From Archangium violaceum (GTDB taxonomy: Bacteria; Myxococcota; Myxococcia; Myxococcales; Myxococcaceae), in the NCBI RefSeq assembly GCF_016887565.1, contig NZ_CP069396.1, positions 10,522,001-10,586,000 on the forward strand: 64,000 nt of DNA, read 5' to 3'. Positions 36,910 to 41,059 of the stretch are shown piece by piece (position 1 is the stretch's first letter; each line of letters starts with the position of its first letter). The notes under the pieces are model-generated. The model did not search any database. It was not told where the DNA came from and worked only from the letters and a program-made list of their open reading frames with translations. A program made the translations under genes and the position numbers.

Positions 36910-38505
36910 GTGCGGCGACTGGCGGACCTCTATGACACCCTCGATGCCACCACCTCCACCAACGCCAAGGTGGATGCACTCGTGGCCTACTTCCGTGACA
37001 CCCCTCCTGAGGACGCCGCCTGGGGTCTGTTCTTCCTCACCGGCCGCCGCCTCAAGCGGCTCGTCCCCCCCAAGGCCCTCCGCGAGTGGGTCCGCGAGCT
37101 GACCTCCACCCCCGAGTGGCTCTTCGACGAGACCTACGCCGTCGTGGGCGACCTCGCCGAGGTCATCGCCCTCCTGCTCGATCAGACCGAGCGCCCTCAG
37201 TCCACCGAGGAGCTTCCTCTGTCCCGTTGGTTGGAGGAGCGGCTGTTGCCCCTCGCCGGCCTCTCCCTCCCCGAACAGCGCGAGCGCGTCACCGGCTGGT
37301 GGCACGTGCTCCCACGCCGTGAGCTGTTCCTCTTCAACAAGATGCTCACCGGCGAGCTCCGCGTCGGCGTCTCCGACACGCTCGTGGTCCGCGCCCTCGC
37401 CCAGCACGCCGGCCTCCCTCCCGCCGCCGTGTCCCACCGCCTCATGGGCACCTGGGCTCCTTCTCGCTCCTTCTTCGAGCAGCTCATCGCCCCCGATGTC
37501 TCCGATGGCGACCGCTCCCGACCCTATCCGTTCTACCTCGCCAGCCCCCTCGAACAGCCCGTGGAGCTGCTCGGTGACCGTCTGGGTTGGCTCGTCGAAT
37601 GGAAGTGGGATGGCATCCGCGGGCAGCTCATCCGCCGCCAGGGCGGTGTCTTTCTGTGGAGCCGCGGCGAGGAGCTCATCACCGAGCGCTTCCCGGAAAT
37701 CGCCGACGCCGCCTCCAGCCTCCCCGATGGCACCGTCCTCGATGGCGAGGTGCTCGCCTACGCGGATGGGCAACCGCTCCCCTTCAGCCTGCTTCAGCGC
37801 CGCATCGGTCGGCAGAAGTTGACCTCCAAGGTGCTCGCCGAGGCCCCCGCCGCCTTCATGGCCTATGACCTGCTCGAGCAGGATGGACAGGACCTCCGCG
37901 CGCTTCCTCTTCGCGAGCGCCGCGCTCGCCTGGAGGCCCTGCTCCGCGACCGGCCCCTGTTCCCCGTTTCACCGGTGATTGATTCGCCCTCCTGGGAGGC
38001 TCTCGCCAACGTCCGCCAGGAGTCCCGCTCCCGCAACGTCGAGGGCTTCATGCTCAAGCGCCTCGAGTCCCCTTATCAACATGGGCGTAAGCGCGGGGAT
38101 TGGTGGAAGTGGAAGATCGACCCCTTCACCGTCGATGCCATCCTCCTCTATGCCCACCCCGGCCACGGTCGCAGGGCCTCCCTTTATACGGATTACACGT
38201 TCGCCGTCTGGAACGGCTCCGAGTTGTTGCCCATCGCCAAGGCGTACTCCGGCCTCACCGATGAGGAGATCGCCAGGCTCGACAGGTGGATCCGCGCTCA
38301 TACCAAGGAGAAGTTCGGACCCGTCCGCTCCGTCGACCCCGTTCAGGTGTTTGAATTGCACTTCGAGGGTATTGCCGCTTCTCCACGGCACAAGTCGGGT
38401 ATTGCCCTGCGGTTTCCTCGCATCGCCCGGTGGCGCTCGGACAAGGCTCCTCGTGACGCGGATTCCCTCGAGCGGTTGAAGGAGTTGCTCCATGCCCCCG
38501 CGTAG
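36910..38505 (+). CDS. ATP-dependent DNA ligase (ligase-associated repair cluster)
   Basis: A 531-residue ATP-dependent ligase of the bacterial LigB/LigC type in the repair cluster. The N-terminal DNA-binding domain (1-200) is followed by the adenylation domain with motif I W-Lys232-W-D-G (EWKWDGIRGQLI), motif III FMAYDLLEQDG, motif IV EGFMLKRLESPY and motif V WWKWKIDPFTVDAI. An OB-like C-terminal part ends PVQVFELHFEGI. It seals nicks using ATP. GTG is the start (36910), immediately after the exonuclease stop. The end overlaps the helicase start by 14 bases, indicating translational coupling. Confidence 0.95.
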   Translation: MRRLADLYDTLDATTSTNAKVDALVAYFRDTPPEDAAWGLFFLTGRRLKRLVPPKALREWVRELTSTPEWLFDETYAVVGDLAEVIALLLDQTERPQSTEELPLSRWLEERLLPLAGLSLPEQRERVTGWWHVLPRRELFLFNKMLTGELRVGVSDTLVVRALAQHAGLPPAAVSHRLMGTWAPSRSFFEQLIAPDVSDGDRSRPYPFYLASPLEQPVELLGDRLGWLVEWKWDGIRGQLIRRQGGVFLWSRGEELITERFPEIADAASSLPDGTVLDGEVLAYADGQPLPFSLLQRRIGRQKLTSKVLAEAPAAFMAYDLLEQDGQDLRALPLRERRARLEALLRDRPLFPVSPVIDSPSWEALANVRQESRSRNVEGFMLKRLESPYQHGRKRGDWWKWKIDPFTVDAILLYAHPGHGRRASLYTDYTFAVWNGSELLPIAKAYSGLTDEEIARLDRWIRAHTKEKFGPVRSVDPVQVFELHFEGIAASPRHKSGIALRFPRIARWRSDKAPRDADSLERLKELLHAPA

Positions 38506-41059
38506 GCGCTCCAGGTCTCGAAGCAGCCTCACGGGCTCCCTCGTAGACCCTCACCCCGTCCCTCTCCCAGAGGGAGAGGGTTCAACCCGGGTTCTCCAGA
38601 TACCCTCACCCCCGTCCCCTCTCCCGAAGGGAGAGGGTGAGGCTTTGCTCTCTTGGTTCCACGGACAGGGGTGGGAGCCTTTTCCTTTTCAATCGCAGGC
38701 TTGGGACTCTTACTCGCGTGGCCAGAGCGGCCTCATCCATGTCCCCACCGGCGCCGGTAAGACCTATGCCGCCTATATCGGCCCTCTCGCCGATGTCGCC
38801 CTCCATCGTCAGAAGGGATTGCAGATCCTCTATGTCACCCCCCTTCGCGCTGTTTCCCGTGACATCGAACTCGCTCTGAACGCTCCTCTGTCCGCCCTCG
38901 ATGCCGATATCTCCGTCGAGAGCCGCACCGGAGATACTTCATCCTCCGTCCGCCGCCGTCAGCGCGAGCGCCTCCCCGAAGTCCTCATCACCACCCCCGA
39001 GTCCCTCTCCCTCCTCCTTTGCAACGAGCGCGCTCACGAGCTCTTCTCCTCCCTCCGCTGCGTCATCGTCGACGAGTGGCATGAGCTGCTCGGCTCCAAG
39101 CGCGGCACCCAGGTCGAGCTCGCCCTCGCCCGTCTGCGTCGCTTCTCCCCCCGTCTGCGCACCTGGGCCCTCTCCGCCACCCTCGCCAACCTCGATGAGG
39201 CCGCCCGCGCCGCCGTCGGTCCTCACGTCTCTCCGACCTTCATCCGCGCCGACCTCGCCCGCCCCGTCCGCATCGAGACCCTCCTCCCCGACTCCGTCGA
39301 CGCCTTTCCCTGGGCCGGCCACCTCGGCTTTTCCATGTTGCGCAAGGTCGCCGACTGGCTCGACCCCTCTCTCTCCACCCTCCTCTTCACCAACACCCGC
39401 TCCCAGGCCGAGCGCTGGTACGAGGGGCTCCGCTTCCTCCACCCCGAGTGGGAGCACGTCCTCGCCCTCCACCACGGCTCCATCGACCGCGAGGCCCGCG
39501 AGCGCGTCGAGCGCGGTCTCAAGGACGGCGGCGTGCGTCTCGTCGTCTGCACCTCCTCCTTGGATCTCGGCGTGGACTTCGGCCCCGTGGAGCGCGTGGT
39601 GCAGGTGGGCAGCCCCAAGGGCATCGCCCGCACCCTCCAGCGCGCCGGCCGCGGCGCCCACCGCCCCGGTGCCACCGCCCACCTCCTCTTCGTCCCCACC
39701 CATGCCCTCGAGCTCGTCGAGATGGCCGCCGCCCGCCAGGCCCTCTCCCAGGGTGAGGTGGAGCCCCGCTCCCCCCTCCACCAGCCGCTCGATGTGCTCG
39801 CCCAGCACCTCGTCACCTGCGCCCTCGGCGGCGGTTTCACCCGTGAAGCCCTGCTCACCGAGGTGCGTGACACCCTCGCCTACCGCGACCTCTCCGAGGC
39901 GGACTTCGATCGCACCCTCCTCCTCGTCACCGAGGGCGGTCCCACCCTCCGCGCCTATCCGCAGTTCCGCCGCGTCCAGCGCCTCGAGGACCGGTATGTC
40001 GTCGCGGACGCTCGCGTGGCCCGCCTCCACCGGCTCAACGTCGGCACCATCGCCTCCGACGCCACCGTGGAGCTGCGCTACCTGAAGGGCCCCCGTCTGG
40101 GCACCGTCGAGGAGTCCTATGTCGGCCGCCTCCGCCCTGGCGACACCTTCCTCTTCGCCGGCAAGCGGCTCGAGTTCCGCATGATGAAGGACCTCACCGC
40201 CTATGTGCGCGCCGCCAAGGAGCGCGCCTCCGCCACGCCTCGCTGGAGCGGTGGACGGCTTCCCCTCTCCGGCTCCCTGGCCGCCGCCGTCCGCCGCGCC
40301 TTCCACGCCGCGCGCGAAGGGCACCTCGACTTCGCGGAGCTCGAAGCGGCCCGCCCCGTGCTCGAGGCCCAGACCCGCCTGTCCCGGCTGCCCTCGCGCG
40401 ACGCGTGCCTCGCCGAGCTCTGCCACACCCGCGAGGGACACCACCTCTTCCTCTACCCCTTCGAGGGCCGTCTGGTGCACGAGGGCCTCGCCGCGCTGCT
40501 CGCCCTGCGGCTCACGCGGCTCCAGAAGGCCACCTTCAGCCTCGCGGTGAACGACTACGGCCTGGAGCTGCTCACCCCCTCGCCCTTCCCCTTCGAGGAG
40601 GCCCTGCGTCCCTCCCTCTTCACCCGCGAGCACCTGGTCGAGGACATCCTCGAGAGCGTCAACCTCGGCGAGCTCGCCCGCCGCCAGTTCCGCGACGTGG
40701 CACGCGTGGCCGGGCTGGTGATGCCGGGGCTGCCCGGCGCGCGCAAGTCCACCCGCCAGGTGCAGGCCAGTGCCGGGCTCCTCTATGACGTCTTCGCCCG
40801 CTACGAGCCGGACCACCTGCTGCTCGCCCAGGCCCGGCGCGAGGTGCTGGAGCAACACTTCCAGCAGGTGCGGTTGGTGAGCACCCTGGAGCGTCTGGAG
40901 CGCTCGCCCCTGGAGCTCGTCCACGTTCCACGTCCCACCCCGCTGGGCTTCCCGCTCGTCGTCGAGCGCATCGGCGCCACCCTCTCCAACGAGTCCCTCG
41001 TGGACCGGGTGGAGCGCATGAAGGAGAAATGGCTGCGCGAGGAATCACTGTCCGCATAA
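38492..41059 (+). CDS. Lhr-type DEXH helicase (ligase-associated repair cluster)
   Basis: An 855-residue superfamily 2 helicase, the Lhr-Core type of the ligase-associated cluster. The Q-like element FPFQSQAWDSYSRGQ is followed by Walker A HVPTGAGKT (about 83-91), TPLRAVSRD, DEWH box VIVDEWHELLGSKRG and the SAT motif ALSATLANL. Motif VI reads QRAGRGAHRPG, and the C-terminal WH/beta-barrel domain follows. It is a 3'-5' DNA or RNA-DNA translocase in characterised homologues. Residues about 18-50 come from a pair of inserted palindromes (38548-38642) that keep the frame open. The start overlaps the ligase end; its end overlaps pdeM by 31 bases. Confidence 0.95.
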   Translation: MPPRRRSRSRSSLTGSLVDPHPVPLPEGEGSTRVLQIPSPPSPLPKGEGEALLSWFHGQGWEPFPFQSQAWDSYSRGQSGLIHVPTGAGKTYAAYIGPLADVALHRQKGLQILYVTPLRAVSRDIELALNAPLSALDADISVESRTGDTSSSVRRRQRERLPEVLITTPESLSLLLCNERAHELFSSLRCVIVDEWHELLGSKRGTQVELALARLRRFSPRLRTWALSATLANLDEAARAAVGPHVSPTFIRADLARPVRIETLLPDSVDAFPWAGHLGFSMLRKVADWLDPSLSTLLFTNTRSQAERWYEGLRFLHPEWEHVLALHHGSIDREARERVERGLKDGGVRLVVCTSSLDLGVDFGPVERVVQVGSPKGIARTLQRAGRGAHRPGATAHLLFVPTHALELVEMAAARQALSQGEVEPRSPLHQPLDVLAQHLVTCALGGGFTREALLTEVRDTLAYRDLSEADFDRTLLLVTEGGPTLRAYPQFRRVQRLEDRYVVADARVARLHRLNVGTIASDATVELRYLKGPRLGTVEESYVGRLRPGDTFLFAGKRLEFRMMKDLTAYVRAAKERASATPRWSGGRLPLSGSLAAAVRRAFHAAREGHLDFAELEAARPVLEAQTRLSRLPSRDACLAELCHTREGHHLFLYPFEGRLVHEGLAALLALRLTRLQKATFSLAVNDYGLELLTPSPFPFEEALRPSLFTREHLVEDILESVNLGELARRQFRDVARVAGLVMPGLPGARKSTRQVQASAGLLYDVFARYEPDHLLLAQARREVLEQHFQQVRLVSTLERLERSPLELVHVPRPTPLGFPLVVERIGATLSNESLVDRVERMKEKWLREESLSA
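38548..38642 (+). repeat. Pair of palindromic REP-like repeats inside the helicase gene
   Basis: Two related palindromes lie at 38548-38580 and 38602-38642. Each has a CCCTCACCCC(C)GTCCC lead and the core CTCTCCC followed by GGGAGAGGG; the second is closed by TGAGG. They encode the peptides PHPVPLPEGEG and PPSPLPKGEGE in the N-terminus of the helicase. I recall this TCACCC..CTCTCCC/GGGAGAGGG element as a dispersed, usually intergenic family in many proteobacteria. Here both copies are in frame in coding sequence. Confidence 0.8.

Follow-up and report, generated by a model that had tools for sequence, protein, structure and literature searches.

Results

The helicase locus and its two palindromes

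The window, by which we mean the whole 64-kb stretch of DNA analysed here, contains a DNA-repair cluster of four genes encoding a ligase-associated exonuclease (TIGR04122), a ligase (TIGR04120), a helicase (TIGR04121) and PdeM (TIGR04123), and all four products score above the curated cut-offs of their profiles. The helicase ATG at 38492 lies ahead of the ligase stop codon (38503–38505), giving the overlap listed in Table 1, and 55 bases separate the end of that stop from the stem of a first palindrome. With the second, this makes up all of the exact palindrome matches in the window, where 100 shuffles give an expectation of 0.02. The helicase frame reads the two as PHPVPLPEGEG and PSPPSPLPKGEGE, in agreement with the preliminary description, which had placed a pair of in-frame palindromes in the helicase N-terminus just after the ligase overlap. 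Each is preceded by an extra conserved block, ACCCTCACCCC, which is part of the repeat and was absent from that description. Altogether, the repeat-derived segment of the helicase amounts to about 31 codons.

Table 1. Features of the ligase–helicase junction, with positions in the window
Feature	Position	Strand	Details
ATP-dependent DNA ligase, cisplatin damage response type (TIGR04120)	36910..38505	+	profile 634.1 bits, cut-off 400
Start region	38480..38505	+	AGGAG 7 bases 5′ of ATG; 14-base helicase ATG/ligase stop overlap
Lhr-type ligase-associated DEXH helicase (TIGR04121)	38492..41059	+	855 aa; 1080.7 bits, cut-off 850
Repeat unit 1	38547..38580	+	ACCCTCACCCC, GT, CCCTCTCCC AGA GGGAGAGGG; residues 19–30, DPHPVPLPEGEG
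Extra block of unit 1	38547..38557		
Palindrome 1	38562..38578		CTCTCCCAGAGGGAGAG; full stem 38560..38580
Inter-unit linker	38581..38601	+	encodes STRVLQI; other two-unit copies have similar linkers
Repeat unit 2	38602..38637	+	ACCCTCACCCC, CGTC, CCCTCTCCC GAA GGGAGAGGG; residues 38–49, PSPPSPLPKGEG
Extra block of unit 2	38602..38612		
Palindrome 2	38619..38635		CTCTCCCGAAGGGAGAG; full stem 38617..38637

A dispersed three-block repeat

A search of the 13.2-Mb genome with the pattern CCCTCTCCC-n(2–10)-GGGAGAGGG returned 660 exact palindromes, against none for the reversed control pattern. Among 188 sampled palindromes (134 clusters in 690 kb, window included), 183 have a CTCACCC block no more than 24 bases away. 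The complete repeat unit can be written as CTCACCCC-nn-CCCTCTCCC-nnn-GGGAGAGGG and matches the BoxC/PIT/TM intrastrand-triplex motif, whose three blocks are present in their fixed order in both helicase units. Alignment of 101 oriented copies yields the consensus atACCCTCACCCCgnCCCTCTCCCaGAGGGAGAGGG, which helicase unit 1 fits. Other places in the genome match the first 90 bases of the helicase pair at up to 89% identity (at least 51 matches; 40 of 549 candidates scored), and by its bases the helicase pair resembles other two-unit copies of the dispersed repeat. BoxC/PIT/TM is a better name for the repeat than the earlier label ‘REP-like’. The stem-end tag GTAG/CGTC of one REP class is missing from the 101-copy consensus in both its forms and GTAG precedes ACCC in 10 of the 101 copies, a minority that led us to reject it as a defining tag. 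Nor is there a visible link to a Y1 tyrosine transposase: no exact palindrome lies in the 3.2-kb loci of any of five weak Y1_Tnp matches, and Y1_Tnp was found in four of nine repeat-rich genomes. With neither linkage nor co-distribution, an origin of the RAYT/REPIN kind is not supported. An Rfam search of the region gave matches that were all far below gathering scores, and a peptide search of plasmids gave no match.

The exact three-block pattern occurs 437 times in this genome and 195–398 times in the five other members of our Archangium set (six genomes, G000–G005). Outside the genus, three genomes of the family hold 49, 88 and 188 copies (G016, G012 and G008, respectively), while 50 of the 59 genomes searched hold none or one; the pattern is absent from G015 and G032, which belong to g11, the nearest genus by helicase identity. 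G008, G012 and G016 all come from other genera within the family, and so patchy a distribution could reflect transfer or repeated loss.

Where the copies lie

A simple codon model was used to call genes in 55 stretches around 100 listed palindromes (the first 1.32 Mb) and in the window. In these sampled stretches 94 of 102 palindromes fall outside called genes, which bears out the view that the family is usually intergenic; six lie in the last 18 or so residues of a gene and two inside a GH3-family gene. Copies outside genes that have a neighbouring 3′ end are found at a median distance of 32 bases from it, with 75 of 81 within 100 bases. The helicase copy, just past the ligase stop, sits in a typical place, and the unusual point is that the coding sequence of the next gene has already begun there. 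It lies within an open reading frame and lacks the intergenic location of the E. coli copies, a property that we do not treat as defining the family. The two window palindromes were nevertheless counted as outside genes because the codon model places the helicase start at 38819, the first 80 residues of the protein scoring below zero. Having chosen this later start, the model lacks the power to settle N-terminal cases, and as evidence on translation of the segment we set it aside as uninformative, since the whole helicase N-terminus scores low.

We dropped the idea that coding copies are kept better than intergenic ones, as copies outside genes are often retained too. A copy lies about 1.2 kb from the bioD repeat described below, or at the matching place, in six of six Archangium loci (L311–L316), and copies are found just upstream of the GH3 gene, likewise in six of six (L184–L189). 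Copies outside decorated genes are thus often old too. Two intergenic sites looked variable, with the palindrome missing from G003 at one (L163) and a single unit in G005 at the other (L180), several rows being unanchored in these comparisons.

Presence in orthologues and effect on the helicase

Over the gene's first 260 bases, the helicase repeat is present in all six Archangium orthologues and in none of the eight from other genera; a further 80 helicase loci yielded the exact palindrome once, in an A. violaceum. From the initiator Met to PTGAGKT, which we take to be the Walker A motif, there are 81–84 residues in Archangium, 69–70 in the nearest genus and 60–89 in other genera. The net gain over the nearest genus is 11–15 residues, well short of the lengthening by about 30 first suggested, although the repeat-derived segment itself is about that long. 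Because this distance differs among genera, the insert occupies a linker that is variable in any case. The TIGR04121 profile match spans residues 52–848 of the helicase, the first nearly invariant columns in an alignment of 30 sequences are W55 and F56, and an AlphaFold2 model has pLDDT below 50 for residues 1–47 and a first helix at 48–58. The linkers of other genera have diverged too far to show insertion boundaries, and the helicase offers no clean empty site.

Linkers at the same place in other genera are similar in length and several are proline-rich, as would be expected if the segment were ordinary helicase sequence of biased composition that came to look like the repeat by chance or convergence. 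The genome-wide copy number speaks against such a reading: both units match, third block included, a repeat with hundreds of copies, and this at a site where the chance expectation for the entire window is the 0.02 given above. The segment is also missing from every one of the eight other-genus orthologues, where the preliminary description had allowed that it might turn up as ordinary protein sequence. We give chance resemblance practically no weight.

The copies differ within Archangium. G003 has one intact unit with remnant-like sequence on both sides, most of unit 1 being missing. Unit 2 has a single changed base in its right arm in G001, G002 and G004; in G005 the third block carries one. 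The G003 orthologue (L022, G003:C1:665385–667577) also lacks, in frame, the part matching residues 202–322; with 731 aa where the other Archangium have 852–855, the protein is possibly inactive.

Probable translation of the helicase repeat

The operon is unbroken, as had been proposed. All 14 family orthologues, eight of them repeat-free, share the 14-base overlap of helicase ATG and ligase stop, and a purine-rich, AGG-containing stretch precedes this ATG in the family. From the ATG to unit 1 there are 51, 45, 42, 42 and 42 bases in the five species with unit 1, differences that are all multiples of three. Between the overlapping ATG and PTGAGKT there is no ATG, GTG or TTG in G001, and the single alternative in G004 is a GTG directly before PTGAGKT. 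With the ATG kept in all 14 orthologues, and with no second usable start in two of the six Archangium, translation of the repeat is very probable; it would form a predicted-disordered tail outside the helicase domain.

The repeat could instead be an untranslated leader, with the helicase starting downstream, for example at an in-frame TTG after unit 2 (38645–38647, residue 52), and the open frame owed to chance or misannotation. The family profile begins at that residue and the TTG has a purine-rich arm before it. An open frame is in itself weak evidence, given that open reading frames run through 73 of 188 palindromes into coding-scored stretches, and many N-terminal REPs have been flagged as possibly misannotated (PMC3733652). 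Yet the TTG is confined to G000 and G005, and the six Archangium share no downstream start of the kind that the preliminary description would have needed for a true start beyond the repeats. Together with the near-absence of alternatives in G001 and G004, the ATG shared with repeat-free orthologues and the spacing in multiples of three, this makes an untranslated leader decidedly improbable, and we prefer translation from the overlapping ATG.

Conservation of unit 1 and predicted hairpins

In five species, 12 of the 13 codons of unit 1 (residues 18–30) are identical. Windows of 13 codons in the helicase proper have a mean of 6.7 variable codons; 7 of 793 such windows reach the conservation of unit 1. 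Third positions in unit 1 differ at 0–1 of 12 sites, where the whole-gene values for the same pairs are 0.13–0.30, and 29–33% of fourfold sites differ between G000/G005 and G001/G002/G004. Such conservation of nucleotides is not expected from ordinary coding sequence. Because the windows are overlapping and the alignment had been seen before the test was chosen, we treat it as a lead only, for which gene conversion and selection on the DNA or RNA form are both possible explanations.

The single units are predicted to fold into hairpins of −18.4 and −23 kcal/mol (z −2.8 and −2.7), while the RNA fold predicted for the start region is nothing unusual (z −0.51). Coupling of ligase and helicase through these hairpins, suggested in the preliminary description, finds no support in the predicted folds: the first would pair about 60 bases inside the frame, and both would lie downstream of the overlapping stop and start.

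These observations bring in a further reading, in which what is maintained in unit 1 is a DNA or RNA element, a hairpin or triplex that perhaps affects expression of the operon, with the protein segment a by-product. Conversion from the hundreds of other copies, or selection for the hairpin or triplex, would then hold 33 bases near-fixed while the surrounding gene diverges, and one helicase sequence would serve as protein and repeat at once. The near-identity of unit 1, its few third-position changes, its fit to the 101-copy consensus and the hairpin energies speak for this reading. Against it, unit 2 shows no unusual conservation and has a changed base in the right arm in three of six species, most of unit 1 is missing from G003, and the statistical test carries the reservations just given; Holder et al., in their account of the motif, cite earlier work that detected neither promoter nor terminator activity, and themselves observed no stable triplex in vivo (PMC4666352). 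We think it unlikely in either form.

Other decorated proteins

Decorated genes were checked as DNA across relatives, allowing up to two substitutions. The helicase is not unique: on this comparison the repeat also lies in frame in at least three other genes, those for BioD, a GH3-family protein and a MenC-like enzyme. BioD (L260:541–1326, − strand) has one N-terminal unit in frame in four of six Archangium and in none of eight outgroups. In those four (G000, G002, G004 and G005) every start found within 69 residues lies upstream of the repeat, and no start codon (ATG, GTG or TTG) separates the repeat from GTDTG in L260. The G003 gene has similar flanks without the repeat, and 16 rather than 27 codons before GTDTG, which is 11 fewer than in G000, G002 and G005. 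Judged on these alignments, BioD is a cleaner N-terminal case than the helicase.

The repeat in the GH3-family protein (L164:3107–4915) lies between the N-terminal and central domains, in frame in six of six Archangium (one unit in five, two in G000) and in none of three outgroup loci. The MenC-like enolase-superfamily enzyme (L293:2187–3317) likewise carries it in frame in all six Archangium and in none of eight outgroups. Two units are present in G000, G001 and G002 and a single one in G003 and G005; in G004 one is visible at the edge of a contig. Here the orientation is opposite to that of the helicase copy and another reading frame is used; the loci of G034 and G004 (split over two contigs) were scored from DNA rather than from protein alignment. 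A long membrane-protein-like candidate reading frame without a Pfam family (L279:2066–4999) carries two repeat units within a linker rich in proline and acidic residues. BioD was found as a bystander in a second set of 47 stretches picked by the pattern GTAGACCC, hence no random sample, and since part of the sample was picked in this way we claim no genome-wide rate of decorated genes.

Discussion

The identity of the repeat, the conserved start, the frame, the distribution among orthologues and the other decorated genes can all be read from the DNA itself. We propose that a two-unit BoxC/PIT/TM copy entered the helicase linker in an ancestor of Archangium, in frame, and was translated and tolerated, with separate entries into BioD, the GH3-family protein and the MenC-like enzyme; we would put the probability of this reading at roughly 0.86. 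The repeat would have spread through the genome and then landed beside the 3′ end of the ligase gene, inserting into a variable linker just after the helicase start codon. The frame would have been kept, with no stop in the helicase phase, and translation would add a disordered tail, rich in proline and glycine, in front of the helicase fold. On this model the repeat owes its survival to a length and sequence that did not close the next frame, and the tail was tolerated because it falls in a disordered linker outside the conserved domain. The same event would have happened separately in the other three proteins, so that Archangium proteins would have been decorated repeatedly by the repeat. 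Translation itself, neutrality and the route of spread are the parts of this account that we infer.

A widespread bacterial repeat that is reported to be always intergenic in E. coli MG1655 appears to become protein repeatedly in one genus. Because the six Archangium species differ in copy state at four genes, they offer a natural series in which to study how the repeat spreads, whether proteins tolerate it and whether a non-B-DNA motif is retained within genes.

The closest known relative of the repeat is the BoxC/PIT/TM motif of E. coli, with the blocks CCCTCTCCC-loop-GGGAGAGGG-loop-GGGGTGAGGG (the minus strand here), which is likewise dispersed, high in copy and mostly intergenic, and for which CD and NMR indicate a triplex as single-stranded DNA (PMC4666352). 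The 23 copies in MG1655 are reported to be always intergenic, whereas Archangium copies also lie inside protein-coding genes, and the close pairs described in E. coli, five in number, are inverted, whereas in Archangium they are mostly direct (32 of 51 neighbouring pairs, with 16 inverted and 3 unresolved) (PMC4666352). Holder et al. 2015 covered 262 genomes, which they call proteobacterial, in a main text that contains neither ‘myxococc’ nor ‘archangium’ (PMC4666352). The open-PMC literature matches listed describe neither BoxC/PIT/TM repeats in coding sequence nor any occurrence of the present repeat in Archangium. The CCCTCTCCCXX(X)GGGAGAGGG repeat of Enterobacter sp. 638 is the same palindrome, often duplicated or triplicated and found at the 3′ ends of genes, but differs in being presumed to act in transcription termination (PMC2869309).

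Palindromes in frame are already known, both as Rickettsia palindromic elements (RPEs) and as intragenic REPs, which occur in many repair genes (PMC3733652). RPEs (Ogata et al. 2000, 2002, as described in PMC3733652 and PMC10969869) are palindromic repeats inserted in frame in unrelated proteins, and the Archangium repeat shares this trait, being in frame in ordinary proteins (Lhr, GH3, BioD, MenC-like) and absent from the orthologues of relatives. RPEs are described as about 150 bp long and belong to other families, whereas the unit in Archangium measures about 35 bp, occurs singly or doubled and is intergenic in most sampled copies, and we draw the parallel as an analogy only. The intragenic GTAG/CGTC REPs of Rocco, De Gregorio and Di Nocera (2013) are also short palindromes, with dimers, inside genes, many of them for DNA synthesis or repair, and those of O. 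terrae include a DNA ligase and RNA helicases (PMC3733652). The Archangium repeat differs from them in having no GTAG/CGTC stem-end tag and no tyrosine transposase beside it. Many of the N-terminal REPs were doubted by the authors who described them, who suspected misannotation (PMC3733652); the decorated sites in Archangium include N-termini, and there the orthologues support translation.
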